From: a virus | Strand: one strand, 5' to 3' | IMG/VR virus record: IMGVR_UViG_3300022602_003472 | Span: 1-64,000 of that record | DNA: 64,000 bases | In this document: positions 6,740 to 39,822 of the stretch, piece after piece | Numbering within the stretch: position 1 is the first letter of the stretch | How the letters are laid out: each line of letters begins with the position of its first letter | Notes under the pieces: generated by a model | The model's database searches: none | What the model was told of the DNA's origin: nothing | The model's input: the letters and a program-made list of their open reading frames with translations, nothing else | Position numbers and translations under genes: made by a program

Positions 6740-6752
6740 CAACTGTTATGGA

Positions 6753-20937: not shown

Positions 20938-21583
20938 ATTTATGCCATTGGATCTGCCAGTGTTTGAACACAAGCAGAAGGTGCTCGATGAGTTCAATCC
21001 CGACGTAGATTTCTATTTTTGGAAAGAAGAGTACATATCAGAATGGACTCTTAGCGAGCCCCTGCATGCGCCAGCTAAGCTCAAACCGATCCACACTGAA
21101 TTGGTTGAATATATCAAAGAATATTTTCCATTTGAAAGCATCACTCTACTCAAATTACTGAGGGCCAATCAAGATGTTGCTGCGCACGTAGACGACAGTT
21201 ATACCGCCTATAAAGGTCCTAAAGATAATTGTCGATTGATAACAGAAGACTATCGACAGCATCAGCTACAGACCGAACCATGCGGATACAGGATGATAAT
21301 TGCCGGCGACAGAAGCAGCTTATATCTGTCTGACGGCAACCCAGAAGTACGAGACGGTCAGTTGGTTTACAATAAGATAACCGAGAAAAAATATTGCCAC
21401 GTACCAGAAACCACAGACAGCTTTGTGTTGAAATCATACGGCAGCATGCACGGAGTAGATAAAACGCCAGGCGACGATAATAGATTGTTGGTGTTTGTTA
21501 TCGGATGGCTCAATCCGGAAAAGCATCAAGAACTCATCGCCAGAAGTGAAAAGGTTTACAAAGATTATGTACACTATGCATGA
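20930..21583 (+). CDS. 2-oxoglutarate/Fe(II) oxygenase-like protein
   Basis: 217 residues. Candidate ligands are H86-x-D88 (AAHVDDS), H174 in SMHGVD and R185 in RLLVFVIGW, the usual jelly-roll order. A Tyr/Arg pair (CGYRMIIAGD, about 118-127) is on the strand between. Its start overlaps the dehydrogenase by eight bases and its end overlaps the methyltransferase gene. Confidence 0.72.
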   Translation: MIRFMPLDLPVFEHKQKVLDEFNPDVDFYFWKEEYISEWTLSEPLHAPAKLKPIHTELVEYIKEYFPFESITLLKLLRANQDVAAHVDDSYTAYKGPKDNCRLITEDYRQHQLQTEPCGYRMIIAGDRSSLYLSDGNPEVRDGQLVYNKITEKKYCHVPETTDSFVLKSYGSMHGVDKTPGDDNRLLVFVIGWLNPEKHQELIARSEKVYKDYVHYA

Positions 21584-22187
21584 AGGCTCTTATTGGCCGG
21601 TCTTCAAGGAAGTATTTGACGAGTATCAACCAAAAACAATCGTAGAGATTGGGACATACTATGGCGGATTGTCTTATAAGTTCCACGAACTTCTAAAGGG
21701 TCAAGGACATGTCTACGGAGTGCAGACCATAGATGAGGACAAGCTCATACATGTACCAAACTCAAACATGGGCGATTATAGCATAGGTGAAGCCGAAGGT
21801 AATATCGACCCTCGACTAAAGAAACACGATTGGAAGAAAGCAGTCAAGAAGTATTTTCCAGCACAGTATCATGGAAATTATGATTTCAATCTAACCATAC
21901 AATCATTCCAACAGATGGAGAATGCGACATTGATACTCGACACGTCTCCGTTTTCCTATCCATGGAAGATAGGTTATGATCTCTGCATCCTAGACATAAC
22001 CACGGAAATAGAAGAGAATCAAAAGCAAGCTGATTACTGGATCAAATATGCCAATGACGGCGGAGTCTTAATGGTTGGCGCATGGACTCATCAATTGGAA
22101 TTCTATGAGCTAGCTAAAAATAGATACGGTTTTCTTACCAAGAGTATCAAAATGAAGGATAAAGAACATGTTCTATTGTGCCTATGA
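21567..22187 (+). CDS. SAM-dependent methyltransferase
   Basis: 206 residues from the ATG at 21567. An upstream ATG at 21495 would overlap the previous gene by 89 bases. The class I methyltransferase motif I is TIVEIGTYYGGLS (about residues 25-37), then GVQTID for the acidic end of strand 2 and YDLCILDI (about 135-142) for strand 4. It resembles the Methyltransf_24-like group. The substrate is unknown, but in this island it is probably part of the same pathway. Confidence 0.72.
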   Translation: MYTMHEGSYWPVFKEVFDEYQPKTIVEIGTYYGGLSYKFHELLKGQGHVYGVQTIDEDKLIHVPNSNMGDYSIGEAEGNIDPRLKKHDWKKAVKKYFPAQYHGNYDFNLTIQSFQQMENATLILDTSPFSYPWKIGYDLCILDITTEIEENQKQADYWIKYANDGGVLMVGAWTHQLEFYELAKNRYGFLTKSIKMKDKEHVLLCL

Positions 22188-22755
22188 ACTAGATTTTCCG
22201 AGACTGGAAGAGCTCAAGAATGAATTGCGCGAATTCTATCCAAGCCAGCCAGCAACGTGGCAAGCATCGGAATATCTAAACTACAAGCAGGTTGGACCAG
22301 AAACGGCGCGTTTTTATGAGTTGTTTGATAATTGCTTTCTCAATAACATGAGATTCTTGAGAGCACCAGCTGACACCTACTATGGTCCGCATATTGATAT
22401 TGATGCACATGAACTGGATCACTTTGAAGGTGAGATACCACCTAACATGGCACGCAATGCTACGATTAACATCCTCCTAGGGGACCCAGATCCGACAGTA
22501 ACCAAGTGGTACATTGATTTAGAAGCCAAAAAGTACGACTGGAAGACCCATCGAGACATTGCTCACAAGATGAAATTGAAAGTCGTCGACGAATACTCGC
22601 TTGGCGAACCACCAATATTGTTCAACACAGGGCAATGGCATTCGGTGAAATATACCAAGGAAAGATGGATGGCTGGTTTCCATTTCCATCCATTTGTGAC
22701 GTGGCAGGGCGCAGTAGAATACTGCAGAGAGAAAGGATTCTTGATAGAACGATGA
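22168..22755 (+). CDS. 2-oxoglutarate oxygenase-like protein
   Basis: 195 residues. HIDID (75-79) gives the H-x-D pair, and H158 in TGQWHSV with R166 gives the distal ligands. The start, charged insert and ending (AVEYCREKGFLIER) match the protein at 23269-23898 (SKGLLIDPA), so the two are paralogues that lie a gene apart in opposite orientation. It overlaps the methyltransferase by 20 bases and the next gene by four. Confidence 0.68.
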   Translation: MFYCAYELDFPRLEELKNELREFYPSQPATWQASEYLNYKQVGPETARFYELFDNCFLNNMRFLRAPADTYYGPHIDIDAHELDHFEGEIPPNMARNATINILLGDPDPTVTKWYIDLEAKKYDWKTHRDIAHKMKLKVVDEYSLGEPPILFNTGQWHSVKYTKERWMAGFHFHPFVTWQGAVEYCREKGFLIER

Positions 22756-23285
22756 TTATCATACAAGATAACTTCCTGTCAGAGGAATACCTCGGCGAAT
22801 TGGAAAAAGTCATAGATCAGGGCAAGCGCATACATTTAGATTCATCAGGCCCGCATGTCATGAAAGAACGAACTGAGTATGACTGGTTCATGATCAATTC
22901 TGGCATTCAAAAAGGCAATCTCAAGAATCAACTGCTGGATAAGATAGAACAGCTAACCTCTAAACCAATTGATCGAGAGAATCTCACACCGGTCCATCTG
23001 TTTGCCAAAGAATTTGATGAGAACAGTTTTTGTGCTCCTCACAAAGAAGATCCAGAGATCTACGGTGACTGGGTATTCATGTTGTACCTCACAGATGAAC
23101 AAGATGGCGAGTTTACTACCGATAGCATCAGCATACTTCCTCGGCGCAATCGCCTGCTGCTGTGTAGAACTGGTTTTGTACACGCCGTAAATCACTGCAC
23201 AGGAAGAAGATTAAACATCTCAGGCTGGCCCTATGCGACCAACGAGGTATTTGAACGTTATACCCGACTCAAGCAGGATCGATAA
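22752..23285 (+). CDS. Prolyl-hydroxylase-like 2-oxoglutarate oxygenase
   Basis: 178 residues from the ATG at 22752, which overlaps the previous stop (ATGA). A longer start at 22635 would run deep into that gene. FCAPHKEDP (93-101) gives H97-x-E99, with Glu in place of Asp. GFVHAVNHCTGRRLNISGW (141-159) gives the distal His and Arg. This is the P4H plan of a short N-terminal helix, MLYLTDEQDGEF and a closing strand. It converges on the next gene with a 17-base overlap. Confidence 0.75.
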   Translation: MIIIQDNFLSEEYLGELEKVIDQGKRIHLDSSGPHVMKERTEYDWFMINSGIQKGNLKNQLLDKIEQLTSKPIDRENLTPVHLFAKEFDENSFCAPHKEDPEIYGDWVFMLYLTDEQDGEFTTDSISILPRRNRLLLCRTGFVHAVNHCTGRRLNISGWPYATNEVFERYTRLKQDR

Positions 23286-23907: not shown

Positions 23908-24678
23908 TCACAATTTGTAGATTGGGGCTAGACAAATCCTAGCTAGTGTATCCTGTCGCCTAAACTTGCTGTAATCTCCATGGTAGGTCGTAGCTAACCA
24001 TACACTATCGCTTGGTAATAATCCAAGCTCTTGGCAGACTTCATGCTGTTGTTCGTTTATACGGCTATAAACGTAATCTATTGGGAATTTTCCTATGATA
24101 GCTTCAGCAATATCATGCGCAATATAGTTGTAATACTTGGCGCCAAATATCAGATCATCAAGCTTATGATCAGCACGCCTGCTAAAGAACCAACCTGTCC
24201 GCACGTTTCTCACACCAAAGCTCTTGCTTAAACTATAGAATACATATTCAACGTTAGGCTGTATATCTATCTTGCGAACAGCTGTGCTACCGACATAAGC
24301 AAGATCTAAGGAAACAGGTTGATCGCAGGGAACTTCGATGAAATTTCCATCTATAGCACTCGGTACGCTTAGATACTGTATGGTAGATTGATGATTATAT
24401 CGCGGTACAACCCACTGATAGTCGCCTGATCTAACCGCAATCGATCTCGGTTCTCTACCTATCCACCAATTCAACCCTTCTGTAATACCATTCATTGGAT
24501 ATACGCTGAAACCAGATAGATCTATCACAGGTTTAAGCCATTCAACGATGTTTGTTTGGTAAGGTTTCACGCTTTGATGATCTATAGGAATTGAGTTCAG
24601 CAGTTGGTAGACTTCTGGTAATATAGAAGTGCGTACAGCGTTGCTCTGGTTTAACAAAATTGCTTTCAACTGCGCCAA
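23908..24678 (-). CDS. Short PLP-dependent aminotransferase-like protein (fold type I)
   Basis: About 256 residues, against 380-430 for most aminotransferases. A PLP-binding Lys is seen at 152 (YSLSKSFG), the Asp that holds the pyridine nitrogen at 125 (SLDLAYVG) and R160 in VRTG. The C-terminal small domain is largely missing. The same three blocks occur in the proteins at 27205 and 33591. The frame has no ATG near its start: TTG at 24678 (or 24669) is the likely start. It is divergent from the gene at 24728 across about 50 bases of AT-rich sequence. Confidence 0.68.
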   Translation of the reverse strand: MAQLKAILLNQSNAVRTSILPEVYQLLNSIPIDHQSVKPYQTNIVEWLKPVIDLSGFSVYPMNGITEGLNWWIGREPRSIAVRSGDYQWVVPRYNHQSTIQYLSVPSAIDGNFIEVPCDQPVSLDLAYVGSTAVRKIDIQPNVEYVFYSLSKSFGVRNVRTGWFFSRRADHKLDDLIFGAKYYNYIAHDIAEAIIGKFPIDYVYSRINEQQHEVCQELGLLPSDSVWLATTYHGDYSKFRRQDTLARICLAPIYKL

Positions 24679-24727
24679 CCTGGATCCATGGTATTATATT
24701 ATATCTTATCCACAACAACATATCAAA

Positions 24728-25354
24728 ATGCCGAACTTTGATTGCTTGTGTCTCTGCAACCATATTAAATATGTCATGAAGTATTTTGACCACGTAGATA
24801 TACCTAGTTTTCCTGAACTGTTTGATCAGATGCAGACTGTCATCACAGCTCACGATATAAGCTGGAGACCAAATAATCAGATATGCATTAACACTGTGCC
24901 CGGTCACGAATCAGACCCAACATATGGCACCGGAAGCTTACAGTATGACTGGTCACAGCTTACTGCCGTAGAAGTTGCCGGTCTCAGCAGCCTAGAAATT
25001 CCCAGGCGACAAGAACCATTACAAGAATCAGATTTCACTATTATCTGCACGCAGTTCAAAGGTACTATCTTTGAAACAATATATGATCTTCTGTCTGCGA
25101 GATATCATATTGGCCGAATAAGGCTGATGCGTAGCGAACCAAAAACCTGTCTATCATGGCACAAAGACGACTCTCCGCGCTTGCACTATCCTATCAAAAC
25201 GCAAGCTGGATGTTTCATGGTTATCGACGATGAAGTTTATCACATACCAGAAAATCGGTGGACCATGACATTGACTGAAAATTTACACACTGCATTCAAT
25301 GCCAGCAAACACACTCGCATACATCTAGTTGCCTGTATATTAGGAAACCGCTGA
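24728..25354 (+). CDS. 2-oxoglutarate oxygenase-like, aspartyl hydroxylase type
   Basis: 208 residues from the ATG at 24728 (a longer frame from 24629 would cross the divergent promoter region). H145-x-D147 (SWHKDD), H187 in HTAFNAS and R197 in RIHLVAC, with an RLMR segment before, are the pattern of Asp/Asn beta-hydroxylase-like enzymes. The N-terminal 100 residues, with CLCLCNH, are unassigned. It is related in layout to the protein at 17327. Confidence 0.72.
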   Translation: MPNFDCLCLCNHIKYVMKYFDHVDIPSFPELFDQMQTVITAHDISWRPNNQICINTVPGHESDPTYGTGSLQYDWSQLTAVEVAGLSSLEIPRRQEPLQESDFTIICTQFKGTIFETIYDLLSARYHIGRIRLMRSEPKTCLSWHKDDSPRLHYPIKTQAGCFMVIDDEVYHIPENRWTMTLTENLHTAFNASKHTRIHLVACILGNR

Positions 25355-25416: not shown

Positions 25417-25908
25417 ATGAATGTTCTAGAGTTTAAGCATAAAGTATCAGATGATCTCCTACATAAACTGCGCCTGGCTGTCATGTCTGTCAGCTTTGAA
25501 TCATATGTGACAGCTAAGGGTAATAGAGTATGGTTAGAATGGGCTGATGCTAGTGCTGTTGATGCCAGCGAACTGCTTGCACTGGTTCCATTCAAACCTA
25601 ATAGGCAAGGGTTCACACGTTTTGCAGCCAACGGATTCATCAACGTCCATGTTGACGATAAGCTTAATCGATCTAGCTGTCTGAGCGTAGCACTGCTGCC
25701 TGAATTAGAAAATTTTGCGCCAGTGAATTACCATGATAGCTTAGATCTCGATGCTCGCATTACCGAGACTTATCATTACAAGCGTCATCCGATCATATTA
25801 AACACAAAAAATCCTCACTCGATGGTCAACAACGACCACGACAGATATATGCTACAGATTCAGTACGCTGAAGACATCTCAGAATTTGTGAAATACGCTA
25901 GATCATAA
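25417..25908 (+). CDS. Small 2-oxoglutarate oxygenase-like protein
   Basis: 163 residues. H78-x-D80 in NVHVDD, H134 in NPHSMV and R143 in DRYMLQIQY follow the oxygenase order. It is the shortest of the seven and consists of little more than the jelly-roll core. It has its own promoter and converges on the kinase-like gene with a 6-base overlap. Confidence 0.68.
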   Translation: MNVLEFKHKVSDDLLHKLRLAVMSVSFESYVTAKGNRVWLEWADASAVDASELLALVPFKPNRQGFTRFAANGFINVHVDDKLNRSSCLSVALLPELENFAPVNYHDSLDLDARITETYHYKRHPIILNTKNPHSMVNNDHDRYMLQIQYAEDISEFVKYARS

Positions 25909-26472
25909 CAATGGTCGCAACAGCGTCATGATATCAGGTTCTATCTTAGATAGCCATTCATTGATTGTTTTTTCTTCCCAGTGCAAGTGATTAGGTGATC
26001 GATCTACGGCATATTTGAAATCAAATGCTTTGATCTTGCCATCCTTGTGAGTGAGATTGCACATCGCATTGTTGCATTTATATAGATTGTGCTGTTTGAA
26101 TAGCTTAAACATGTCCACTAGTTGTTCCACAGCATCTGGTATCACGTGAGTTAATCGTGAAACATTATCGTAATAGTGTAACAGGTCAGGTCCAACATAT
26201 TCTTGGAGAATGTAGTACCCAAACTGATCCAGCAAAGGTCCGTGTTCGTATATCTTTATCACACAATCGTGATTTAATTGACTTGACCATTTGATCTCAT
26301 TTTGATAAAGCGCTGATATCTGATCTTGCTCTACATGCAAAGGGGCACTGCCGCGTATGGTTATCCCGTTTGGTTTGTAGAATTTCTTGCAGATGCCTCT
26401 TGCAGAATCTATCCAAACCTCTGCCATAGATCCTCTAGAACCAGAATTAGTTTGATACAATTCAAACGGCAT
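25903..26472 (-). CDS. Protein kinase-like fold, probably catalytically altered
   Basis: 189 residues. The kinase plan is visible: glycine loop GSRGSMAEVW (11-20), Lys at 29-30 (CKKFYK), a helix C Glu near 59 (NEIKW), hinge LQEYVGPDLL (89-98), catalytic loop HNLYKCNN (128-135) and DFK at 151-153 in place of DFG. The catalytic Asp of H-R-D is Leu130, so it may be a pseudokinase or a divergent small-molecule kinase. It is last in the minus-strand operon from 33522 and overlaps the gene upstream by 11 bases. Confidence 0.65.
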   Translation of the reverse strand: MPFELYQTNSGSRGSMAEVWIDSARGICKKFYKPNGITIRGSAPLHVEQDQISALYQNEIKWSSQLNHDCVIKIYEHGPLLDQFGYYILQEYVGPDLLHYYDNVSRLTHVIPDAVEQLVDMFKLFKQHNLYKCNNAMCNLTHKDGKIKAFDFKYAVDRSPNHLHWEEKTINEWLSKIEPDIMTLLRPLL

Positions 26473-27202
26473 GTAATCTATCTACTATCTCCTTTTGGTA
26501 TTCTTGTAGTATGGTACGTATGCGGTATTCTTTTTCATTTCTAAAATCAATACCCAATTTCTCTTTCAACCATACTATTATCGAATCATGGTCATTTGCT
26601 GATAGTAGCCCGCATAGATCAAATGGATCTTCACAGTCTTTGCTGTTAAATCGTTCTATGTAATGCTGCCACTCGCCGTCGTCCATCGGATAACATGCCT
26701 GGCATCGTTGCATCTGATAGTGTTTACCTGCTGCAGTGTTTGCTACAATGCTTATTCTTCTTAGATTTGTTTGAACGGCTCGTAGCCGTTCAATTGGCAA
26801 GGACCGTCGCCAAGAATGAATGCCTAGAAGAACCCGTTGTCCTTGTAGAGTATAATCTTCGTTGTCATAGAATTTCACCGCTGTAGAACCGTGTTTCCAG
26901 CGCTGCCGCAGTGCTATAAGAGCAGTTCCTACTATCTCAAAATACGCTAACCAATCGTCGACATCTGTTGGTTCACATCTATTCATAAACCAATTGGTTA
27001 ATTTTTTTGGAATCAAGATATCGTAGTCTATTTCACGAGTAATCGGGTCGTCGGTTATCGAAGTAGCTGTGAATATGTTTGGATTATCGTATGACATAGT
27101 AGCATCCGATTCTGCCCATAAGCGCATGAGCAATTGACCAGAAGAACCAGGCAAATAATCTATGAGTATCAATTGGTTATTTTCTAAGAACGGATATCGC
27201 AT
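26462..27202 (-). CDS. Hypothetical protein with a possible nucleotide-binding loop
   Basis: 246 residues. Near the N terminus, LIDYLPGSSGQLLMRLW (about residues 12-28) looks like the 5'-phosphosulfate loop of sulfotransferases or a degenerate P-loop after a strand. No matching 3' motif is clear. RCQACYP (about residues 166-172) gives two Cys. It lies in the operon between the PLP gene, 2 bases away, and the kinase-like gene. It could be a divergent sulfotransferase. I cannot be more exact. Confidence 0.6.
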   Translation of the reverse strand: MRYPFLENNQLILIDYLPGSSGQLLMRLWAESDATMSYDNPNIFTATSITDDPITREIDYDILIPKKLTNWFMNRCEPTDVDDWLAYFEIVGTALIALRQRWKHGSTAVKFYDNEDYTLQGQRVLLGIHSWRRSLPIERLRAVQTNLRRISIVANTAAGKHYQMQRCQACYPMDDGEWQHYIERFNSKDCEDPFDLCGLLSANDHDSIIVWLKEKLGIDFRNEKEYRIRTILQEYQKEIVDRLHAV

Positions 27203-27204
27203 TA

Positions 27205-27981
27205 CTACACCAATAGGTCACTGATACACATGCGATTGGTGCCGCCGCGATCAAAATATTTCCATTTATCGGAAAAATCGAGACCAAAAATTACCGTATC
27301 AGACGGCAAAAATCCAAGATCGCTGCATACTGTTAATTGTTTATCTCTATATGTTTCATACATGTAATCAGGAGACCACTTGTCCAACAACTGGTAATGA
27401 TATTCTGCGCCAGCTAAGAAATGATAGGCCCACGGCTCGTAAACCTTAGAAGGATATTCGTCATTGGTGTAGAGCATACCCGTACGCCAATTGCCTGTAC
27501 CAAACGTTTTTGATAGAGAGAAACATACGCTGTGTATGTTTTGATATGCGCTGAAATCAAAATCAATGTTTCCGCACACACCAAAAAATGCGCAATCTAC
27601 AAATATAGGTTTGTTATAGGTATTTGCTATAGCCAACTTATCGTGAGAAGATTTGCCGTCTGCTGAAAACGGATGGCTCAGCACTATTGCATCACATTGC
27701 TCAAGATCAAAAGTAGCTCTATCACCAATTATTGTCCGAGTATAACTATACTCACCGCGAAATATGCCAATCTTATGATAAAGGGCATAGGTTTGATTGA
27801 GAGCATCAGTGACACCAGACACGACGTAGCCCTGTCCGGGTAATCCAGCTACGACTTGCGTGCTGCTGTGTATCCAATCATTTAACTTAGTTTTGAAACC
27901 ATTGAAATCCTTCACGCTACCATAATTTGGATGTATAGCCTTGGCATTCCTAGAGATCGATTCTAGATCATAATTGGTCAT
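27205..27981 (-). CDS. Short PLP-dependent aminotransferase-like protein
   Basis: 258 residues from the ATG at 27981, which overlaps the stop of the radical SAM gene by four bases. A start at 28029 would extend further into that gene. Blocks: SGVTDAL (55-61), LSHPFSADG (101-109), D129 in FVDCAFFG, K158 in SLSKTFG and R166 in WRTG. The C-terminal domain is shortened. Translational coupling to the radical SAM enzyme suggests that they act in successive steps. Confidence 0.75.
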   Translation of the reverse strand: MTNYDLESISRNAKAIHPNYGSVKDFNGFKTKLNDWIHSSTQVVAGLPGQGYVVSGVTDALNQTYALYHKIGIFRGEYSYTRTIIGDRATFDLEQCDAIVLSHPFSADGKSSHDKLAIANTYNKPIFVDCAFFGVCGNIDFDFSAYQNIHSVCFSLSKTFGTGNWRTGMLYTNDEYPSKVYEPWAYHFLAGAEYHYQLLDKWSPDYMYETYRDKQLTVCSDLGFLPSDTVIFGLDFSDKWKYFDRGGTNRMCISDLLV

Positions 27982-29102
27982 TTCACCAACCGTGTTTTTG
28001 GAATCTTGCTGTCTGCAGAACTCACACATGCATCTGATATGCAGGGCATAGGTTGATCAAATAGTTTGAATCCAGTCTCTATGTAACCAAGAGGTTTATC
28101 TTGGCAGCTATAACTACGTTTGATAGCACCATCTGGTTCTCTGATAATAATACTGCGATACCCGCTTTCGCAGTCCCAACCTTTGAAATTATTGAAATTG
28201 AATGCATTGAATCTTTCAGCTTGGTCCATATACCATTTCTTACCAGTATCATCTTCAAATTCCACTTGCATAATCTGTGGCACATTTGCATCGTCGCCGT
28301 TACTAATGCTCATATTCTGCATGCTAATCGTTGGCTTAGGCCGTTCTACCTTGCTCTTTACTGCAGTGAAATCGCGTTGGGGCATCCCGTTATGCAAAGT
28401 AGCTAGCTGCTCTTTAGTGTAACCTTCTACTACTCGACTGGCTGTTGAATCGCTTTGTGGCTTAAGAGTTACATTAATTCCGCGGCTAAGGAAATATTCA
28501 GCCTCAGCATATAGAATATCAAACCATTCGGGTATCATCACAGTGTTTACTGTGACCTGGATGTCATTCTCCTGTAAAAAGACTAATTTATCTGCAAATT
28601 TCTCTGTGTGCACCTTTAGATCGCCTTGCTTTATTCCCTGTTCACGGTGCCAACTAGCTGTGACGCTCACACGGTGCAGATCTTTTGTAGCTGCTACATA
28701 TTTCTCAAACCATCGAATGCCTTGCGATATGTTGCTGGTCATATGCACGCTCTGATAATTGCAGTTAGCAGTATCTGTGCTGTAGTGCCCAAGCAGTCTA
28801 AGATAATCTGGATATACTGTGGGTTCGCCTCCGCTGAAACTAAAATGAAAACTGTTAAAACCTCGTTCTCTGCTCTGTTTCTTGATCTCATCCATTGTCA
28901 TAAGGTTAAGTTCGATAGGACGATAGTCCTTGGTATTGCTGCGTGCATATGGCCAACAATAGCTGCAGTTGTAATTGCAATATCTACCTAATAACCAGCT
29001 AACAGCAAATATGTCTCTGTAAAGCAGCGTGCGCTGACCAAATTTTACGATATGATCAAACGGTATCTGAGTGAAATCATAGCTGCTCCATGCTTCATTC
29101 AT
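27978..29102 (-). CDS. Radical SAM enzyme with C-terminal Cys motif
   Basis: 374 residues from the ATG at 29102. The ATG at 29129 would lengthen the overlap with the dehydrogenase gene. The cluster motif CNYNCSYC is at 42-49 and FSGGEP at 89-94. The C-terminal third has GWDCESGY, a YSCQDKP segment and CISDAC, enough cysteines for a SPASM or twitch-type auxiliary cluster. Such enzymes usually modify peptides or small molecules. It lies in the operon between the dehydrogenase and the PLP protein and overlaps both. Confidence 0.88.
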   Translation of the reverse strand: MNEAWSSYDFTQIPFDHIVKFGQRTLLYRDIFAVSWLLGRYCNYNCSYCWPYARSNTKDYRPIELNLMTMDEIKKQSRERGFNSFHFSFSGGEPTVYPDYLRLLGHYSTDTANCNYQSVHMTSNISQGIRWFEKYVAATKDLHRVSVTASWHREQGIKQGDLKVHTEKFADKLVFLQENDIQVTVNTVMIPEWFDILYAEAEYFLSRGINVTLKPQSDSTASRVVEGYTKEQLATLHNGMPQRDFTAVKSKVERPKPTISMQNMSISNGDDANVPQIMQVEFEDDTGKKWYMDQAERFNAFNFNNFKGWDCESGYRSIIIREPDGAIKRSYSCQDKPLGYIETGFKLFDQPMPCISDACVSSADSKIPKTRLVK

Positions 29103-29664
29103 ACCAAGTTTCCATTTGCATGGGATCAATGCTTAACTCGTTTAATGCTATTCCAGTTGGTATTTCAGTTAACCATTTTATAAAATTAGCAGCTGTATCC
29201 ACTGACATGCATTTCCTATCTGTGTGTTTATGTTGATTGTTGTCCAAAGTTCCTAGGCTTATCAGTGTTACATGAGGACCTCCGCTCCATACACTCATCA
29301 TCGACAATCCAGTGCAGTAATTGCGCAGAGCTTTCTTTTCCTGTTGGTACATCCAATCTCTGGCTCCAGTGGCACGATCGGTGGTGCTGCCAATGCAAAT
29401 GATGCGCAAGTCATGTTTGTCTTGTTTTGCTTTTTTATAGATTTTTTCAAGTATCAGCGTCTGATGAAATTTCCACAGTGCGCTGTTGTTTATAAAAATA
29501 TCATGTGCTGCAGACAATGAAACTAGCTTTTCTTGGTCAGTGTCTACTGTGAGATCGTATCCCGTGGATCTGCTTACAAAGGTAGCAGACGGCCAGATGT
29601 TTGCCAAAGCTGCCGCTAAACCTTTTTCACTATTACCAGTGATGAGAACTTTTTTATCCAACAT
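29095..29664 (-). CDS. Compact short-chain dehydrogenase
   Basis: 189 residues from the ATG at 29664 (29676 and 29703 are also in frame but overlap more of the upstream gene). The nucleotide loop is ITGNSEKGLA (8-17). INNSA (about 58-62) stands for NNAG, and the catalytic triad is S93 (IGSTTD), Y106 and K110 (YQQEK). The lid is short, as in the protein at 20425. It overlaps the radical SAM genes on both sides. Confidence 0.75.
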   Translation of the reverse strand: MLDKKVLITGNSEKGLAAALANIWPSATFVSRSTGYDLTVDTDQEKLVSLSAAHDIFINNSALWKFHQTLILEKIYKKAKQDKHDLRIICIGSTTDRATGARDWMYQQEKKALRNYCTGLSMMSVWSGGPHVTLISLGTLDNNQHKHTDRKCMSVDTAANFIKWLTEIPTGIALNELSIDPMQMETWYE

Positions 29665-30919
29665 GTTTGTGTGCATTTTCTGCATCCCAGGCATGAACCA
29701 CATTTCTTAAGGTCAATCCTTCCCCGTCATCAACTTTCATTTGCATCATAACCGGAGCAATATCACGAGTATGTTTGTGAAATATACCAAGCGATACATC
29801 GTCGCGCCTGGCTTTTGGCACACATTGTCCGCAACCGCAATGTGTCTTTGGGCAACGAATTAACGGAATCGATCCTGTCTGTTTGATAGTTGTCTCTAAC
29901 TGATCGCAGTATTTGTCTAATTCACTGACTCGACATATGGGTTTGACTTCTCCGTTCAAATCAACTTGACAGGTTTGATGATGCCAAACTTGGTCAATCT
30001 CTTGATGTATGTATAAGAAATACCAATTGATCATGCAATTCCAACCTTGGAAATTGTTATTGGTAAGGAATTTGGCATCGTCCCAATTACCAATTTCATC
30101 CATTAACGACATACGACGCCCACCGCAGCAAGGTCGACCAATGCTTTGTCCAACCAGATTCTTTGGTTGTTGTGGAGTATTAGATTGAGCAATTTGTTGT
30201 GTAGATACTGTGTCAGTTTCCTTATCCTCGCGCAACACATGTGAGTTTTTTAGATTCCAAAATTGCTTGAGCCAATCCATCTGCCAATCTGAATAGAGAT
30301 GCACAGTCTTGTCTCTCAATCCCAGCTTGATAGTTCCTTCGTCTCCTATGACACGCGGTGTATATGATATACCAACATCATCAAACCATTGGCATAGATC
30401 GATGCATTCTTTGAAATATTCATCATCTTGATGAAACATGACATTTACTTTGAACTTATACTTGCGCTCGTGCATAATTTTCATGTTTAATCTTACTCGA
30501 GCCTTCTGCTCAGCAGTGCTTTCACAATGATAGCTGATTGTAGAAAAAGTAGTGTTGTTCATGACCTGTTCCAATCTGCGTTCACTGTAGAAACCATTGG
30601 TTGTCACGGTCCTATGCATGCTGGGATGTTTTTCGCTCAGATATTCGAGAAAGGGGAAGAAATCTGGATTTACAGTTGGTTCGCCTCCGGTAAAACTGCA
30701 GGATATCTTGAAAGGTTTTGATCTGTATCTGTTATAAATCTCGCCATATCTAGCCACGCTATCAGCTGTGCGCACCAATTCATCAAAACGTGCAGTGGGA
30801 CTCCAATTGTTTCTTCGGTGCGGCGGGCAGTAAGAACACGTATATGTGCATCTGCGGCCAAGGTCCCAGATCACTAAGAGACTATCAGTTTCGTTATCAT
30901 CAACAGCACAGAAACTCAT
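29654..30919 (-). CDS. Radical SAM enzyme with Cys-rich C terminus
   Basis: 421 residues. CTYTCSYC is at 24-31 and FTGGEP at 76-81. A long C-terminal region carries several Cys (PCCGG near 262-266, a CQV, a CR, then CPKTHCGCGQC near 374-384), which fits SPASM-type auxiliary clusters. It is the third gene of the operon beginning at 33522. Substrate unknown. Confidence 0.87.
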   Translation of the reverse strand: MSFCAVDDNETDSLLVIWDLGRRCTYTCSYCPPHRRNNWSPTARFDELVRTADSVARYGEIYNRYRSKPFKISCSFTGGEPTVNPDFFPFLEYLSEKHPSMHRTVTTNGFYSERRLEQVMNNTTFSTISYHCESTAEQKARVRLNMKIMHERKYKFKVNVMFHQDDEYFKECIDLCQWFDDVGISYTPRVIGDEGTIKLGLRDKTVHLYSDWQMDWLKQFWNLKNSHVLREDKETDTVSTQQIAQSNTPQQPKNLVGQSIGRPCCGGRRMSLMDEIGNWDDAKFLTNNNFQGWNCMINWYFLYIHQEIDQVWHHQTCQVDLNGEVKPICRVSELDKYCDQLETTIKQTGSIPLIRCPKTHCGCGQCVPKARRDDVSLGIFHKHTRDIAPVMMQMKVDDGEGLTLRNVVHAWDAENAHKHVG

Positions 30920-30932
30920 ATCACAATCCTTT

Positions 30933-32246
30933 TCATAGCATCCACGGTTGTAGATCTGGAAATACGTCTAACACATTTTGACCGCGTATCTTGTCAAGGT
31001 TGTCTGTAGATTTTTTAAAGGCTGACCAATCTTTTCTATATGTATGAGAATAATTCATGTAACCGCAAACACTATTTCTAATATCATCAGCACTTTTTAT
31101 CACGATATCGCTGTAACCTTCCAGTTTTACCCAGTCAACAAATTGATCAAACTTGTGCATGACAATGTTTTTAACCATCTTAGGTAACACTCTGATGTTT
31201 AATTCAGACGGCATATGAGCCATATGGTAGCTTATGATTGGTTGCGTTGTGGAATTATTGAATTTTTTCAATCCACTCTTTTCAAGCTTCCACTGCATGA
31301 AATCGGGCATGTGCAACACGTTATATGCTGTGACGGTAAAGGCAAACCATGCTCTGATATTATCAGATGCTGCATCAACTTTCTGTATGTTACGCCATAC
31401 TTTTTCCCAATTAGCTGGGTGTCTTTGATATTCAAAAACCTTACCATATCCATCAATGCTAGCGCCAACTTCTATGTTTTTAAAATGCGTCCAAAGATCC
31501 AATACCCTGGGAGATATGCTGGTCATGTTGGTGTTATATTCCACAGTCATAGACGCTGCAGCACCGTTATCAATACAACGCTGTAAAAATTCATAGTGCC
31601 GTGCTATCAATAGCGGCTCGCCCCCTGCCATATAAACATGCTGCACGTTATGTGCATTTGTTTCTATTTGCTCCCAGAATGAATCGTTGTTATGCCATCC
31701 ATAGCTGTGGCTGATTAATTTACCTTGTTGCCTATGTATATGTTCTCGGCCGTGAGTATCGTTAAACCAGTTTCTGTTTGCTAGTTTTATGTAATCTTCA
31801 TACCACCCAGTGCTGTCTTGAGGTCCGCACATGCGGCAAGCCAGATTACACAGATTGCCAAAACGCAAATCATAATAGGTAACCGGAAGAGCATCAACAT
31901 CAATGCTCCCGTCAATGGCCGTGTGATCTATCACATCACCACGACGTAATTTCCACCTATCTTGTTCGTAGAGCCTGCGGCTTACCATACCCGATTGCTC
32001 TTCCGACTTACATCTACCACATTCGCTGCTCCATATACCATCTAACATGTTGCGTCTCACTGATCGCATGAGATCACTGTTTCTAGATACAGACATATCA
32101 TCACGAGCGGCGTTATACGGAGTTCCGTCTGGCTTTCTAAGCACACCTTTGTCTTTGGTAATATTGGCTTGACAGCACACACGAAGATCGCCATTGCTGC
32201 GAACTGCTTGGAAATTCCAAGGTATTGGGCACCATGTATCAGACAT
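30933..32246 (-). CDS. Radical SAM/twitch-type enzyme
   Basis: 437 residues from the ATG at 32246, overlapping the upstream gene by 8 bases (the frame extends to 32285). The N-terminal block WCPIPWNFQAV with GDLRVCC (5-25) and a CGRC pair (76-79) suggests an N-terminal auxiliary cluster. The core motif CNLACRMC is at 133-140, followed by a GGEP motif. It is a clear paralogue of the protein encoded just upstream (32239-33522). Confidence 0.87.
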   Translation of the reverse strand: MSDTWCPIPWNFQAVRSNGDLRVCCQANITKDKGVLRKPDGTPYNAARDDMSVSRNSDLMRSVRRNMLDGIWSSECGRCKSEEQSGMVSRRLYEQDRWKLRRGDVIDHTAIDGSIDVDALPVTYYDLRFGNLCNLACRMCGPQDSTGWYEDYIKLANRNWFNDTHGREHIHRQQGKLISHSYGWHNNDSFWEQIETNAHNVQHVYMAGGEPLLIARHYEFLQRCIDNGAAASMTVEYNTNMTSISPRVLDLWTHFKNIEVGASIDGYGKVFEYQRHPANWEKVWRNIQKVDAASDNIRAWFAFTVTAYNVLHMPDFMQWKLEKSGLKKFNNSTTQPIISYHMAHMPSELNIRVLPKMVKNIVMHKFDQFVDWVKLEGYSDIVIKSADDIRNSVCGYMNYSHTYRKDWSAFKKSTDNLDKIRGQNVLDVFPDLQPWML

Positions 32247-33522
32247 TATATCTATCTCGCCAGTCATTGACTGCAATAGCAGCATGCGGAAATATAGAAT
32301 CCCAATCTTGTTGCTGATTGTCTTTGAAACGCTGCCAGACCATCACCAATCGCTGCCTGTGTTCAGCTGCATCGTCGTCTGGCATGCGATACCTATGATA
32401 TAATTTCTCGTAATGATCTAACTTCTTGTTGAGTTTAGAACTGATAGATCCAACAGATATGCTGGACCGTGCAGACTTTAAGATGTTGTCTATGTGCTGT
32501 GGTTCAAGAATGTTGATATTGAAATACACAGGGTTATAAACCATGTGGCTGAAATGCTCGTTGATCTTCTTGAACCGTTGATCGGCTGCCCATTGCAATA
32601 ATGCCCCGTAATGCTCCAAAGAAAGCACGCTAATAGTAGTCGATATAAACACCGATATGTGATCATCGCTTTGGTCTAACATTCGTATGTTGTCTGATAC
32701 TGTTTCCCAGTTGCTTAGATATCGTATGGCATCATTGGCAGGACCCAATGCATCAATGCTGGCACAGATACGTATCTTTTTGAATTGTTTCCACAGAGTA
32801 AACAAATCAGGTGGGAAGAAAGTGAGGTTAACACTGTATTCCAGTTCCATGTTTCTGCTGTAGCCAGATGATATCAGAGATTCCAGTAGATATCTGTGAT
32901 GCTTGATCAACAAGGGTTCTCCGCCGCCAAAATTAATCTTCAGCAAACCGTTTGATGATCTTATCAAGGCATCAATGTTGTTCTTGTCTTTGGACCAACC
33001 AAACGCACTACTGGAATTTCCAAGATCATATACCTTGTCATCGACCACGAAATAATCCAAACCAGTTATCTCTTGGTGAGCATCATACCATTTTGATGCT
33101 TCGCCGGGGAAACACATTACACAGCGCAGATTACACTGATTGCCTATTCGCAAATCAAAATCTTGGAATTTAAGACCAGTAACAGAACCATCTGGTGCTG
33201 TGGATTCCAATGCCATTGCTTTGGTAAAACTGTGCAAGTGTCGTTCCGTTTCCCATTGGTCTCGGCTGTTGGATCCCACAGACGATTCCTGTTCGCATCG
33301 CCTGCACTGTATAGGCCAATCTCCATCTAGCATCTTACGGCGCACATCCTTGAGAGTGTCGCAGTTTAACACATCTTCGCGATCCAAATCAGTGATGTTT
33401 AATATGTGTTGATTGTTATACAACAGCGTGTTGCCCTGGCCAGCACTTTGGCTATGGCTACACATGCGGAGGTCGCCATTATTTTTAACGCCCAAGTGCG
33501 TCCAAGGTAAAGGGCACCACAT
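32239..33522 (-). CDS. Radical SAM/twitch-type enzyme, first gene of the operon
   Basis: 427 residues. WCPLPWTHLGV and GDLRMC (2-21), CRRC (73-76), the core motif CNLRCVMC at 130-137 and GGGEP mirror its downstream paralogue. Tandem duplication followed by divergence is likely, so the two may act as a pair or on related substrates. A promoter lies at 33554-33582. Confidence 0.87.
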   Translation of the reverse strand: MWCPLPWTHLGVKNNGDLRMCSHSQSAGQGNTLLYNNQHILNITDLDREDVLNCDTLKDVRRKMLDGDWPIQCRRCEQESSVGSNSRDQWETERHLHSFTKAMALESTAPDGSVTGLKFQDFDLRIGNQCNLRCVMCFPGEASKWYDAHQEITGLDYFVVDDKVYDLGNSSSAFGWSKDKNNIDALIRSSNGLLKINFGGGEPLLIKHHRYLLESLISSGYSRNMELEYSVNLTFFPPDLFTLWKQFKKIRICASIDALGPANDAIRYLSNWETVSDNIRMLDQSDDHISVFISTTISVLSLEHYGALLQWAADQRFKKINEHFSHMVYNPVYFNINILEPQHIDNILKSARSSISVGSISSKLNKKLDHYEKLYHRYRMPDDDAAEHRQRLVMVWQRFKDNQQQDWDSIFPHAAIAVNDWRDRYNV

Positions 33523-33553
33523 TATTTGAAATCCAGAGATATATCCATGCTAA

Positions 33554-33582
33554 TTTATAATATATCCTATCACGCAAGTAAA
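33554..33582 (-). promoter_or_regulatory. Host-type promoter of the radical SAM operon
   Basis: Minus-strand TTTACT (33582-33577), 17 bases, TATAAA (33559-33554). It would drive the run from 33522 to 25903. The divergent gene at 33591 has no clear promoter of its own here. Confidence 0.5.
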
Positions 33583-33590
33583 CTTGTAAC

Positions 33591-34445
33591 ATGAGAGATG
33601 GACCAAATAGACAATACTCAGCTGAATGGCTACAGGTCGAAAGACCTCAGCCTATGTATGATAGCAACATTCGCAAGCTATATGGTGCTATATATAACGA
33701 AAATCCAGTAGATTCTTCAAATATTGTCAATGATTTCAAAGATACATTCTTAGAGTATCTCGACGCACATAGCTTGAGCAATCTACGCGGATATAGAAGT
33801 TTCGCTCGATTAGACGCATGCGTTGGGTGCACTCAATTCATTGATGACTTGTATCAGCGTTTGGGCAACAACCGCCTCATGGTTTTTGAAAACGAGTACA
33901 AATACCATTGGCGATTGAATGAAAACATAGAATACACCACTATACCAACCTTGGATTCTAGCAAAGAGCTGCTGATATCAATGCCATTCCCTGCGCACGG
34001 AGATGTGCACCCAGAAATGTCTCAGATATTAGACCGATGTGCCGAGCTTCGCATACCCGTGCACATCGACGGCGCATGGGTCTCGTGCAGCCAAGGCATA
34101 GATTTCAATTTTGACCATCCTGCTATTCAAACATTCGCAATAAGCCTCAGCAAGGGCGGTCTTGGCAATGACAGGGTGGCCTTGAGATTTGCCAGGTCCA
34201 GACCAGACGGTGCCATCAGCATAATGAATGATTTCAACATGAATTGCCAAAGCTTGATGCACATCGGAATGCAATTCATGCGACAGATAGGTCCAGAATA
34301 CTTTTGGAAGAAATATGGCACAGCCTATCAGACTGTGTGTGCTGATTTCAATCTCACACCAACCAAAGCCATCCACCTAGCCAAAGATCAAAAAGGTTCG
34401 CCTGTGGGCGTGAGACCACTGTTGCGATGCCTCATTAAATCTTAA
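33591..34445 (+). CDS. PLP-dependent aminotransferase-like protein
   Basis: 284 residues, the longest of the three PLP-type proteins here. D160 in VHIDGAWVSC, K188 in SLSKGG and R195 mark the cofactor site, and FPAHGDVH (133-140) takes the place of the PNPxG loop. The C-terminal domain is short. It is transcribed opposite to the large operon and meets the next radical SAM gene tail to tail, with the two stop codons overlapping at 34442-34445. Confidence 0.68.
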   Translation: MRDGPNRQYSAEWLQVERPQPMYDSNIRKLYGAIYNENPVDSSNIVNDFKDTFLEYLDAHSLSNLRGYRSFARLDACVGCTQFIDDLYQRLGNNRLMVFENEYKYHWRLNENIEYTTIPTLDSSKELLISMPFPAHGDVHPEMSQILDRCAELRIPVHIDGAWVSCSQGIDFNFDHPAIQTFAISLSKGGLGNDRVALRFARSRPDGAISIMNDFNMNCQSLMHIGMQFMRQIGPEYFWKKYGTAYQTVCADFNLTPTKAIHLAKDQKGSPVGVRPLLRCLIKS

Positions 34446-35347
34446 ACCACAGTCTTTTCTACCAGAGCATCCCACTTGCATGGACACAGGTCTTGATCGC
34501 ATATGACGCCATCGCTGGGTAGATCATACTCACCAAAGATGTTACCCACAGTACTGCCTACTCTGCGCGAACAACGATGTATGTCTCCTCCTATATCAAC
34601 ATAGAATCTGCGCACACCTGCTTGGCATTTCATGCCGTTGAACGCATGTAAACCTCGATCTAGAATGAGCGGGAATCTGATTCGTTCCCCGTCCAGATGT
34701 AGGTTAACCGGCAGCTGCCACGACATCGCATGAGGTTTCATCTTGAGATATCTATAATTGGTTATCCACTGTCGCTGTTCTTCTGTGTATCCTAAGAACA
34801 CAGTTGATCCTATCTCTTCTCTGACAAATCGAGGCAGTATTTCTATGTTCAATCCTTCCAATCTGCCAGCCAGCCGCTTGGCCCTCTCAAAATTCTCAGG
34901 TACCACCATCAGCGCCACACCGCAGCTAACCTTGTGTTGTAATATCTTGGCCACTTCAATAAAATGATCATCGTCACACTGCTCATGATGCCAACTCATC
35001 ATGATGTACATGGGTCCAGCTGCGAACGAATCCCAATATCTAAGACTACGGGATGCATTTGTGCTGAATTCTATATACGTGTTTTGATCACTGACTGCTG
35101 ATACGAAATCTCTGAACTGTGGCCATATGGTTGGTTCTCCGCCCATGAATTCCACATAGGTGTATTGGTTCCTTGCTCTGACTTTTACCAAGAAGTCTAT
35201 GAAAGGCGCAGGGTCATCAGGCCATCTATTGCTCTTGTTGTTGTGTACAGGGCTACAATAAGAACAGCTAAAGTTACAGTAGTTGTGCATGAATAGTGTT
35301 ACCAAAGCACAATCTAAATTCTCATTGGTCACATGAGCCAGCATCAA
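34442..35347 (-). CDS. Radical SAM enzyme, short form
   Basis: 301 residues. CNFSCSYC is at 24-31 and EFMGGEPT at about 73-80. The C-terminal quarter contains CQAG, CSRR and CDQDLCPCKW, consistent with a SPASM-type cluster. It follows the small gene at 35344-35628 with a four-base overlap and is the last member of the island on this side. Confidence 0.87.
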   Translation of the reverse strand: MMLAHVTNENLDCALVTLFMHNYCNFSCSYCSPVHNNKSNRWPDDPAPFIDFLVKVRARNQYTYVEFMGGEPTIWPQFRDFVSAVSDQNTYIEFSTNASRSLRYWDSFAAGPMYIMMSWHHEQCDDDHFIEVAKILQHKVSCGVALMVVPENFERAKRLAGRLEGLNIEILPRFVREEIGSTVFLGYTEEQRQWITNYRYLKMKPHAMSWQLPVNLHLDGERIRFPLILDRGLHAFNGMKCQAGVRRFYVDIGGDIHRCSRRVGSTVGNIFGEYDLPSDGVICDQDLCPCKWDALVEKTVV

Positions 35348-35628
35348 GCGTGTCCTATGATTCCAAAATTTTGTATGTCGTTGAGCTTGCTGACTTCGGT
35401 AATTTGATCAGTCATGATCTTGTTTACTAGTTTGATATTCTTTTTATGGTAAGACGGATCAAGCTGACCGATGATATGACCCAAATTCAAACTCAATACC
35501 GACAATACCACATCATTGGCTGTCTCGGCATTGGTTTTGGTTTCTAACTGCAGATGCAGTCCGGCTAGATAGGTGTAAAGCGCGGCGCTGAGATCATTCT
35601 TGAGATCGATTGTGGTCTGTTCATCCAT
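35344..35628 (-). CDS. Small hypothetical protein
   Basis: 94 residues, predicted helical, acidic N terminus, no known motif. It has a TTAAATA late-type element directly upstream and overlaps the radical SAM gene, so the two are probably co-expressed late. Function unknown. Confidence 0.6.
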   Translation of the reverse strand: MDEQTTIDLKNDLSAALYTYLAGLHLQLETKTNAETANDVVLSVLSLNLGHIIGQLDPSYHKKNIKLVNKIMTDQITEVSKLNDIQNFGIIGHA

Positions 35629-35707: not shown

Positions 35708-38700
35708 TTAAATTGCAGTCTGCGTGCTACCCGTACTCTGAGACCCACCTGGCAGAGGTTGAGTCAAGCTCAGCACCCTGATTGGTATGTAGATGAACTC
35801 GATGGCAATCTCTGGTTGTATAGCAACATCGATCCAAAGCTCGTGTGCCGATATCCTAGCTGCTGTGTTGTTGCTGGTATCGCAAACCACTGAGTAATCG
35901 TAGATAGCTCGCAAGCCAACTAGATTACCCATGAAGCTATTGAATGCTGCTGTCACAGCCTGTCGAGTCTGTTGATCGTTTGGTTCAAACAAGAACGGTT
36001 GAGCCAGCGTGTTTAGGTTGCGCGACAAGTAGTTTACAAGTCGAGCAACATTGACTCTGTCCAATTCCGTTGAGATCGGATCCAGCGTCTTCTGACCAAA
36101 TATCACCAAACCGCGATTTGGTATGAAGCTGATTGGATTGATGCTGTTTATATACAGCACATCTCGCTGACCTTGGTTCAACGTAACTGGTTGATAGGTA
36201 CCGTCTGCCTTGAGATAGCCAACGCTCAACGCACCATTTACAAGTCCGCGGTTGAATCCAGCAGGAGCAAACCAGGGGTATGCCACTTGGTCGTTGTATG
36301 CATAAGTGGTCAGTGCCATCACGCTAGGAGGAACAAACACGTTCTGTCCATCGAGATTTGTTTCAAGAGCCCAAGGATAATAAACAGCAGCATAGGAGCT
36401 GTGAGTTATCAATCCATCTGGACCATCTTCTGCTGCGTTGTTGGCATTGGTAGCCCAATTTGCTAGGCTGGTTGTGTCAGCTGTCAGTTCACCAGGCGGA
36501 TCAGCAAGCACAAAGAATGTGTCTTGGCGATCTGTGTTCAATTCCACCATGTTAGCCAAGCACTCGATGTAACCCGGTGTCGCCATGAGGTTATAGTAAA
36601 CAGCTTCGCCGCGTATCTCTTGATTGCTCACGATGCTAGCATTGAGCGCATTGGTTATCATTACTCTTTGAGCAGATGAACCCATGTAAGGAGTACCATC
36701 TGGACGGTTGCCGCTTGCTGTTACCCAGCAATCTGGATCATACGGTGCGCTCAGTGTTGGGAAGTAGTTCTTGTAATACTGCTTGACATTGTATGTGCTA
36801 TAACGTGTGTTGAACAGCAACATACCTGCTGGATATAGCTCGGCGTTAGGAGCATCGCTATCCACATAGTTGCTGACTACCATAGCGCTAGGTGCTTGGC
36901 TGCCATCAACATAACCGTCATTGTTCCAACGAGCGTCAGTGAAGATAATACCCGATGGACTGGTGTGGTTTGTGTTATCTATTAGCGAGAACGAGCTGCT
37001 TGAAGCATCATAACGATACAACACAGGATATGGTGTGACACTGCTGTCCACCCATATATCATTGGTTACTAATGGATTACCGTTGCTTTGTGTTGTAGGC
37101 ATGCTGCCGTCTATGATCGGACCATTTGGATCTGTGGCAGGATATGCATTCTTGTAACCCTGCCAGATCTGGCCGTTACCAACCATGATATCAACCTGTA
37201 GATAGGTATTATACCATAATGTGCCGTTTGCTGGAGGTCCAACTGGGGCTGTGGCACTGGCTGTATAAGTCAGAGGCTGCCAGCTTGAACCATCCCAGTA
37301 ATACAGAACTGTGTTGGCTTCTGGTGGTGTATCGCCGTCGTTGTTGTATCTTGCGTAAACTGTGCCGATGGCACGCAACGCACCAAACGCAGCGTTAGCC
37401 ACACTGTCACTGCTGTACATGGGCACAGTACCAGTGTTTGGACTGATGTTTTCCTGTATCCAAAGCGAGCCGTTGTACTTACTAACCACGAGGTTTGCCC
37501 CACGATCCTGGCTGGTTGTGTTAATCCACACGTTAGTTGCCGCAGTCTGTGGCAATGAGCTAGGCACAGTGAGGCTTGGATAGTAGCCTTGGTAAACCAA
37601 TTGACGACCAAACACATATCCATTCTGTATACCTGCGCTATTCAGCGGGGTACCACTGATATCCTTTACCGTGAACTGCGTGTTGTTGGTGTTTGTGATT
37701 GTGAGATAGTTGCCAGTAGCTGCTGATGCCACTATTGGACCAGCTGGGAATGCAGTGTTGATGGCTGACACCACACCTGCCAGCGTGTTGTTAGGTGCTG
37801 CTGGTACATTGATTGTCACCGGATTACCAGTACCTGGATCAATGCTAAAGGTGTTTGAAGTCAAGAATCCCATGGTAACATTAAACGTAGCATTGCTGCC
37901 ACTACCACTTGTTACGCTCACTGGATTGGTCGGATTCACTGTGTAAGCACCTTGGTTACCAATAGTCACAGTGTTTACACCCCAACCAAGCGTAAATGTA
38001 GCATTGATGCCGCCACCGCTGGTTGATGTAGGAGTAACGGGATTGGTTGGCACACTGCCAGTGCGCTGACCTGCCGACGTGATAGTAACACCAGTGATGG
38101 TACCACCCGAAACGTTGCTGACTGTCAGCACCAATGGGCTTGTGTAATTTACACCAGAGAACGTTAGGGTATCACCGAGATTGTAACCAGATCCGCCTGC
38201 GGCTGGTGTTGCTGATATTGCCTTGACTGATGCCACCGACAACACAGCAGCAATGCTATGAGTGCCGCCAACTACGTTCAGCGTATCGCCAGGTACATAA
38301 CCAGCACCTGGTGTAACTGTAGTCGCAGATGCTACATAGGTGGTAGCAGCCACAAACGTTGGATTGGCCACAGTGCCTGTGACAGCGCCATAGTAAGTCT
38401 GTGTCACAGGCATACCGGCATTTTGCCACGGATGAGTGAGATCACTTTCTGTGGTGATGTCAGCAAAGGCTGTGTCAGTACCGTCATAGTTGGTTATTAC
38501 TAGATAGTGGCTAGAGCCACTGGTTGCTGTGCTAGCATAAGCATTGAAACTGTTAGCATCAAGCACGGCATTGATGTCACTTACAAACGATGTAAGTGTG
38601 GTTCCGCTCAGCGTTATAGTGACTGGTATGCTATCGCCAATGCTGATGGTGCACTGGTTGCCTACTGTGAAAGTTGGATTTGCAACAGTACCTGTGATAA

Positions 38701-39800: not shown

Positions 39801-39822
39801 GTGCTGATCTATTTATCAGCAC
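39801..39822. promoter_or_regulatory. Late promoter of gp18 in an inverted repeat
   Basis: Minus-strand GATAAATA (39817-39810) lies inside the repeat GTGCTGAT / ATCAGCAC with a 6-base centre. It is 34 bases before the ATG. Confidence 0.55.

Follow-up and report, generated by a model that had tools for sequence, protein, structure and literature searches.

One constant gene among exchangeable companions: a radical SAM operon in the tail-gene region of a probable jumbo phage

The stretch of DNA analysed here (the window, 64,000 nucleotides) covers positions 1 to 64,000 of the IMG/VR record IMGVR_UViG_3300022602_003472, a viral contig of 64,022 bases on which terminase, portal, major capsid, tail tube and tail sheath genes are present (PHROG matches). 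The tail sheath is closest to those of the jumbo phages Atu_ph07, Phosso and PA5oct, with an identity below 60%. Relatives of the capsid gene lie on contigs of up to 543 kb, and the window is therefore probably a fragment of a jumbo T4-like phage genome. A cargo island of ∼19 kb separates the tail sheath and tail tube genes. It contains six radical S-adenosylmethionine (SAM) genes, three paralogues of a pyridoxal phosphate (PLP) enzyme, two short-chain-dehydrogenase-like (SDR-like) genes, Asp/Asn hydroxylase-like proteins, a methyltransferase-like protein and a gene of the fatty-acid desaturase family. One arm of the island is an operon of eight minus-strand genes, running from 33522 down to 25903 in the order radical SAM, radical SAM, radical SAM, SDR, radical SAM, PLP enzyme, unknown and kinase-like. 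The fourth radical SAM gene, named R35, is the subject of most of this analysis. The features of the operon are the following:

33575-33586, minus strand: conserved element CAAGTTTACTTG, an imperfect inverted repeat between the divergent g39 and g40 (identical in the relatives L009, L015, L023 and L033)
33554-33582, minus strand: predicted promoter TTTACT-N17-TATAAA before g39 (spacing kept in six phages)
32239-33522, minus strand: g39, twitch-type radical SAM protein, first gene of the operon (NF033640, 288 bits, cut-off 170; Pfam PF04055 and an N-terminal SPASM)
30933-32246, minus strand: g38, twitch-type radical SAM protein with likely ATG at 32246, present in most relatives (NF033640, 379 bits; homologues 65-78% identical)
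29654-30919, minus strand: g37, radical SAM protein of variable presence (PF04055, 1.4e-11; 23 of 90 loci)
29095-29664, minus strand: g36, short-chain-dehydrogenase-like, with TGxxxKG and YxxxK (alignment A3; no Pfam match)
27978-29102, minus strand: g35 (R35), the constant radical SAM protein, with CxxxCxxC and four invariant C-terminal Cys (profile scan, alignment A4, model pLDDT 86.8)
27205-27981, minus strand: g34, small fold-type-I PLP enzyme, ATGA-coupled to R35 (PF00155; invariant Asp145 and Lys174; model like class I/II aminotransferases)
26462-27202, minus strand: g33, with a conserved N-terminal PGSSGQLLxRLW, a P-loop-like motif (alignment A9)
25903-26472, minus strand: g32, protein-kinase-like fold without the HRD aspartate (fold by profile; four homologues)

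All eight genes of a preliminary description of this DNA were found, with the order, coordinates and strand given there, and Pfam confirmed four radical SAM proteins among the operon open reading frames (32239-33522, 30933-32285, 29654-30919 and 27978-29129). The gene joints were measured with the best starts, those favoured by relatives. Five of the seven are overlaps, of 8 nt at g39/g38 (ATG 32246), 11 nt at g37/g36 (ATG 29664), 8 nt at g36/g35 (ATG 29102), 4 nt at g35/g34 and 11 nt at g33/g32, which agrees with the 4-11 nt announced for most joints; the other two are gaps of 13 nt (g38/g37) and 2 nt (g34/g33). The ATGA described between the radical SAM and PLP genes is present at 27978-27981 (g34 ATG 27981). 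Neither the probable jumbo phage origin of the DNA nor the constancy of one of its radical SAM genes was noted in that description, which covers a single arm of the larger island.

The string TTTACT-N17-TATAAA, described as the promoter of these genes, is found at 33582-33554. Promoter-like matches are rarer in the region than in shuffled sequences (18 versus 37); such strings are not enriched, and therefore the match alone means nothing. In five relatives (L009, L015, L023, L033 and L025), TTTACT, a spacer of exactly 17 nt and TATAAA or TATATA precede the homologous gene, and the spacer sequences differ. This conserved spacing, together with the 12-mer CAAGTTTACTTG, supports the view that we are dealing with a real promoter, with the caveat that TTTACT and the 12-mer also stand just upstream of the divergent g40. 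A T4-type late promoter was considered and rejected: TATAAATT at 33552-33559 resembles TATAAATA, but the relatives mostly have TATATATT at a fixed 17-nt spacing to TTTACT, and a -35/-10 promoter therefore fits better. The tight overlaps and the conserved promoter spacing suggest that the eight genes form an operon read as one transcript. The box TATAAATA itself stands 27-46 nt ahead of portal and tail genes, both in the window and in relatives. T4-type late-promoter-like boxes (TATAAATA/GATAAATA) lie in the window at 63692-63699 (minus strand), 45631-45638 (plus strand) and 39810-39817 (minus strand), 27-45 nt before portal, tail protein and sheath genes, and each of the nine TATAAATA sites in the freshwater relatives examined immediately precedes a gene, which in five cases is the tail gene adjoining the tube.

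A scan of IMG/VR with a g35 profile confirmed 347 relatives of R35, and the best 80 of these were fetched. Their R35 is 61-91% identical to the window copy, the lower figure being partly set by keeping the best 80 matches. No relative was confirmed in 84,980 GTDB species genomes, searched with two peptide patterns, nor did 50,697 named phages yield any. The R35 copies of marine jumbo contigs share 64-67% identity with that of the window, the terminases 49-54% and the major capsid proteins 73-76%; for a 518-kb contig the corresponding values are 85, 78 and 96%. The identity of the twitch radical SAM proteins of the same islands goes down to about 22%. From the identities of R35, terminase and capsid within the same genomes, R35 therefore changes at the pace of a virion protein, while its neighbours turn over. 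R35 is not a core gene of all relatives: it was found in none of 11 contigs selected by their capsid gene, one of which has a capsid 91% identical to that of the window, and two matches of 20-25 bits were ordinary radical SAM proteins.

A scan of IMG/VR with g38 returned 11 loci. Where these are long enough, a gene set lies between the tail sheath and the tail tube in which g38, g36 and R35 are always there and the rest is exchanged. In marine phages, tandem runs of twitch-type radical SAM genes are often found upstream of R35, and among 63 non-redundant loci (fetched 10 kb) the same-strand run upstream of R35 holds up to nine radical SAM genes. R35 is the last radical SAM gene in 39 of 55 same-strand runs with at least two such genes, versus 13.7 expected, and in 31 of 43 versus 10.4 expected where both flanks are long; these loci are related rather than independent, and a p-value for the comparison is not literal. 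Contigs with R35 carry 5-22 radical SAM genes (median 5.0 per 100 kb), whereas nine capsid-picked relatives without R35, of at least 135 kb, carry 1-8 (median 1.3 per 100 kb; Mann-Whitney p = 2e-4 for density). Two shorter contigs without R35 gave no radical SAM match. The direct upstream neighbour of R35 is g36 in 16 of the 63 loci.

These data bear on the idea that the island is a passive collection of auxiliary metabolic genes which boost host cofactor metabolism and share no single pathway. Timms et al. (2010) proposed that phage radical SAM genes boost host metabolism (PMC2853527), and the gene content here is highly variable, as such a collection would have it. However, R35 is conserved like virion proteins amid the turnover of its neighbours, tends to be the last radical SAM gene and is associated with radical SAM number and with PLP genes, and the 10 cargo proteins scanned against NCBIfam all stayed below the cut-offs of metabolic equivalogs. 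We regard a passive collection as improbable.

At the protein level, R35, g37, g38, g39 and g41 all have CxxxCxxC and a PF04055 match above the curated cut-off. In R35 this motif is invariant (alignment A4), as are four Cys near the C-terminus, which is consistent with the four forming one auxiliary cluster. The motif is also invariant in the g38/g39 family (alignment A7), where four N-terminal Cys are invariant besides the radical SAM triad and may belong to an auxiliary cluster. Among solved structures, the twitch proteins come nearest to the peptide maturases SkfB, TigE and CteB, with only the core matching. The R35 model (pLDDT 86.8) resembles viperin, MoaA, BlsE, SuiB and anSME with TM scores of up to 0.56, and radical SAM proteins of uncultured phages and Campylobacter phages with TM scores of up to 0.75 by target length. 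Of the solved structures, viperin matches the fold best, and it also stands among the best sequence matches (pVip, 1.5e-11), which would fit a phage viperin relative making a modified nucleotide, as in nucleotide-analogue or defence-type chemistry. Nevertheless, R35 scores 40.5 bits with NF038283 (prokaryotic viperin), over the core only and far under the cut-off of 180, it has the four invariant extra C-terminal Cys, and other island radical SAM proteins match viperin too. R35 was thus rejected as a viperin on its NF038283 score, and we consider nucleotide-analogue chemistry of this type very improbable.

The g34 reading frame (27205-28029) passes the Pfam Aminotran_1_2 cut-off, and the island has two further members of this PLP family:

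33591-34445, plus strand: g40, PLP paralogue, divergent from the operon (alignments A1 and A6; 36 of 90 loci)
23908-24678, minus strand: g29, third PLP paralogue (alignment A6)

All three have the pyridine-binding Asp and the Schiff-base Lys in SxSK of fold-type-I PLP enzymes. Across 28 sequences of the family (alignment A6), D145, S171 and K174 are invariant and R182 nearly so; the C-terminal carboxylate-binding Arg is not kept in all members. The family is unusually short, about 250-310 residues. Class I/II aminotransferases, HisC and ACC synthase among them, match the g34 model, and a single-protein scan with the PLP protein gave no matches.

The preliminary description read the R35-g34 joint as a unit for radical chemistry followed by amino transfer. 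What stands is a probably co-transcribed radical SAM/PLP unit with its PLP residues kept, in a phage group in which PLP family genes occur in six of eight jumbo phages with R35 versus none of four without it. What does not stand is a specific couple of the two enzymes: a g34-type gene directly follows R35 in 5 of the 63 non-redundant loci, and PLP genes are otherwise found elsewhere in the island. The extension of this idea to amino-sugar biosynthesis was dropped because the array stretches hold no family-2 glycosyltransferase; the partner domains in other islands are QueC-like PP-loop, nitroreductase, methyltransferase, AMP-binding, TauD, GNAT, carbamoyltransferase and PLP decarboxylase. We infer that these represent tailoring chemistry typical of amino-acid- or peptide-derived products.

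A wider form of the sugar hypothesis is a hypervariable host-range or cell-surface island, whose enzymes would modify lipopolysaccharide or another envelope glycan through amino-sugar chemistry and so exclude other phages or alter adsorption. SDR, PLP enzyme, carbamoyltransferase and acetyltransferase are common sugar-tailoring classes, the island lies within tail genes, and the radical SAM cassettes of pelagimyophages sit in a host-recognition cluster with glycosyltransferases (PMC7029224). Yet family-2 glycosyltransferases are absent from five of eight R35-positive contigs and are elsewhere far from the arrays, no nucleotide-sugar enzyme appeared in the island-protein scans (among the 25 commonest families of the pooled scan), and in several marine phages the array adjoins thymidylate synthase and DHFR genes instead of tail genes. 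An envelope-glycan island is, in our view, unlikely.

The PP-loop proteins raise DNA base hypermodification, in which a 7-deazaguanine or a hypermodified pyrimidine would shield phage DNA from host nucleases. QueC-like PP-loop proteins are found in arrays, a QueD-family gene is present in six of eight R35-positive contigs, and many Campylobacter phages have DNA that is refractory to restriction enzymes (PMC2853527, PMC3322345). But QueD is also present in five of nine R35-negative relatives and is not near the arrays, the QueC matches are weak and mostly below cut-off, and the thymidylate synthase-like protein beside the marine arrays, as read from its sequence, keeps a dUMP-type PFN motif and has a DHFR neighbour. 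QueD, QueE and QueC were not found together in association with the arrays. Deazaguanine modification was rejected as the job of the array, QueD not being associated with R35 and a canonical QueC being absent, and base hypermodification in general seems to us decidedly unlikely.

Taken together, we see an even chance that the operon forms the core, part constant and part variable, of a biosynthetic (tailoring) island carried by phages of a jumbo T4-like lineage. That one enzyme evolves slowly while those around it change fast suggests that a step is shared and the decoration diversified. In one such pathway, R35 would carry out this step, on a common substrate and plausibly late in the order since its gene usually ends the array. 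The exchangeable twitch radical SAM proteins, SDR, PLP enzymes, hydroxylases, methyltransferases and PP-loop proteins would alter the substrate further, and the product would differ between phages. The PLP enzyme could add or remove an amino group, or perform another PLP reaction, on a carbonyl made by radical chemistry. Rather than a sugar, the substrate would most likely be a derivative of an amino acid or peptide, a class that takes in ribosomal peptides and the side chains of virion proteins. The rapid turnover of the array genes suggests a product under diversifying selection, which might serve surface decoration, counter-defence or the exclusion of rivals.

Several observations weigh against this interpretation. 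The module is dispensable, because phages without R35 can have a capsid 91% identical to that of the window. A few R35-negative phages keep small radical SAM arrays, so R35 is not needed for every array; on a 543-kb contig without R35 (L106), whose capsid is 83% identical, five radical SAM genes form a compact array at 314642-319945. The matches of R35 to solved structures are generic, all with TM scores below 0.57. The radical SAM counts are lower bounds, PF04055 missing some divergent members, and the R35-positive and R35-negative sets come from different searches, contain loci that are kin and consist mostly of fragments. Neither a precursor peptide nor an RRE domain nor a gene for a common substrate was identified, short open reading frames not having been systematically tested, and no PqqD domain was among the 25 commonest of the 47 families matched by 103 island proteins.

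A more specific form of the tailoring reading, which we advance only tentatively, is that the phage-restricted R35 makes or finishes a common scaffold which the exchangeable arrays, with up to nine neighbouring radical SAM proteins and PLP enzymes, diversify into a large family of phage-specific products. Since 2010, radical SAM gene clusters have been known from T4-like phages without explanation, and R35 offers a single point of entry shared by hundreds of phages. Were its substrate found, the whole array family would become interpretable, together with a possibly large untouched pool of viral radical chemistry.

Among the remaining operon genes, the SDR label of g36 rests on motifs and on similarity to g23, and a PDB search with its profile returned nothing useful. 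No Pfam or PDB relative was found for g33. The kinase-like label of g32 holds at the level of the fold, but the four homologues all have a residue other than Asp at the HRD aspartate position. The other features of the island and its borders are as follows:

35708-39775, minus strand: tail sheath gene, island border (PHROG 10581, 7e-236)
35344-35628, minus strand: g42, 94-residue protein between the tail sheath and the island in freshwater relatives (14 of 90 loci)
34442-35347, minus strand: g41, radical SAM protein (PF04055, 6.4e-9)
24629-25354, plus strand: g30, Asp/Asn beta-hydroxylase family (PF05118, 7e-8; 37 of 90 loci)
20425-23285, plus strand: g23-g27, SDR-like, oxygenase-like and methyltransferase-like proteins of the plus-strand arm (homologues in L009 and L012; a weak Pfam match for the SDR only, the other labels by sequence reading)
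18902-20428, plus strand: g22, B12-binding radical SAM protein, KedN5-like (NF033712, 151 bits, below the cut-off of 700; PF02310, 0.0009, below cut-off)
16522-17950, plus strand: g18, fatty-acid desaturase family, and g19, Asp/Asn hydroxylase family, at the far end of the island (PF00487, 4e-15; PF05118)
14080-15762, minus strand: tail tube gene, island border (PHROG 13438, 2e-19)
2222-3394, minus strand: seventh radical SAM protein, twitch type, outside the island (NF033640, 217 bits)

The tail sheath has 1355 residues, which is very long for a sheath, and its middle region is long, repetitive and variable. The protein g22 is similar to KedN5 C-methyltransferases and to the PADLOC candidate defence family PDC-M51A (3e-26), which is unusual in a phage tail-gene island. 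The desaturase family of the gene at the island edge (16522-17280) recurs in about 20 of the 90 loci. Some marine R35 loci have a beta-ketoacyl synthase gene (PF00109) near the array, for example L045 at 18114-19262 (minus strand), among other metabolic genes.

Comparable gene collections have been described in other T4-like phages. The Campylobacter phages CP220 and CPt10 are T4-like myoviruses with 11-12 radical SAM proteins of unexplained function, and a block of ∼10 kb with ten to twelve genes, five of them radical SAM, is replaced in a near-identical phage by a block that is unrelated yet matches it in function (PMC2853527). The present island likewise has several radical SAM genes in a block which related phages replace by other radical SAM genes. 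It differs by R35, its twitch-type NF033640 enzymes, its small PLP enzymes and its jumbo phage setting, whereas CP220 and CPt10 have a putative glycine amidinotransferase partner and no constant radical SAM anchor was described for them (PMC2853527); a glycine amidinotransferase was not among the 25 commonest island families, and no direct search for it was made. Radical SAM proteins of the Campylobacter phage CP21 share the R35 fold (TM score 0.72-0.74 by target), although R35 has no sequence match in named phages. NF033640 is a family whose function is not stated; g38, g39 and the protein at 2222-3394 pass its cut-off of 170 bits over nearly their full length, and R35, g37 and g41 stay below it at about 32 bits.

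Cultured T4-like phages with related twitch radical SAM proteins include the KVP40-like Vibrio phages, with a single one, and K566, with six radical SAM matches; they differ by a radical SAM identity of about 20-27%, the lack of R35 and a terminase 30% identical. In the KVP40-like phages (KVP40, L180 at 5669-7014; K566, L008 at 33014-34338), the twitch radical SAM gene is coupled to that of a protein of 97 or 89 residues, with a larger protein upstream. The small protein, acidic in KVP40, could be a substrate, carrier or precursor peptide. Many radical SAM genes in aquatic T4-like phages are also known from a marine genome of 183 kb with 12 of them (PMC5332604) and from pelagimyophages (132-164 kb), whose radical SAM cassettes differ within a hypervariable host-recognition cluster, between VrlC and gp14, with glycosyltransferases (PMC7029224). 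Unlike the latter, the island described here lies between tail sheath and tail tube genes, and no constant radical SAM gene has been reported for either. Exchangeable islands rich in radical SAM genes are thus a known, unexplained kind, seen in Campylobacter phages (2010) and in marine T4-like phages (2017, 2020). The open-licence literature searched contained no mention of a constant radical SAM member or of an association with PLP genes; what this locus adds is an array in which one gene is constant and the others vary, and which is associated with PLP genes.

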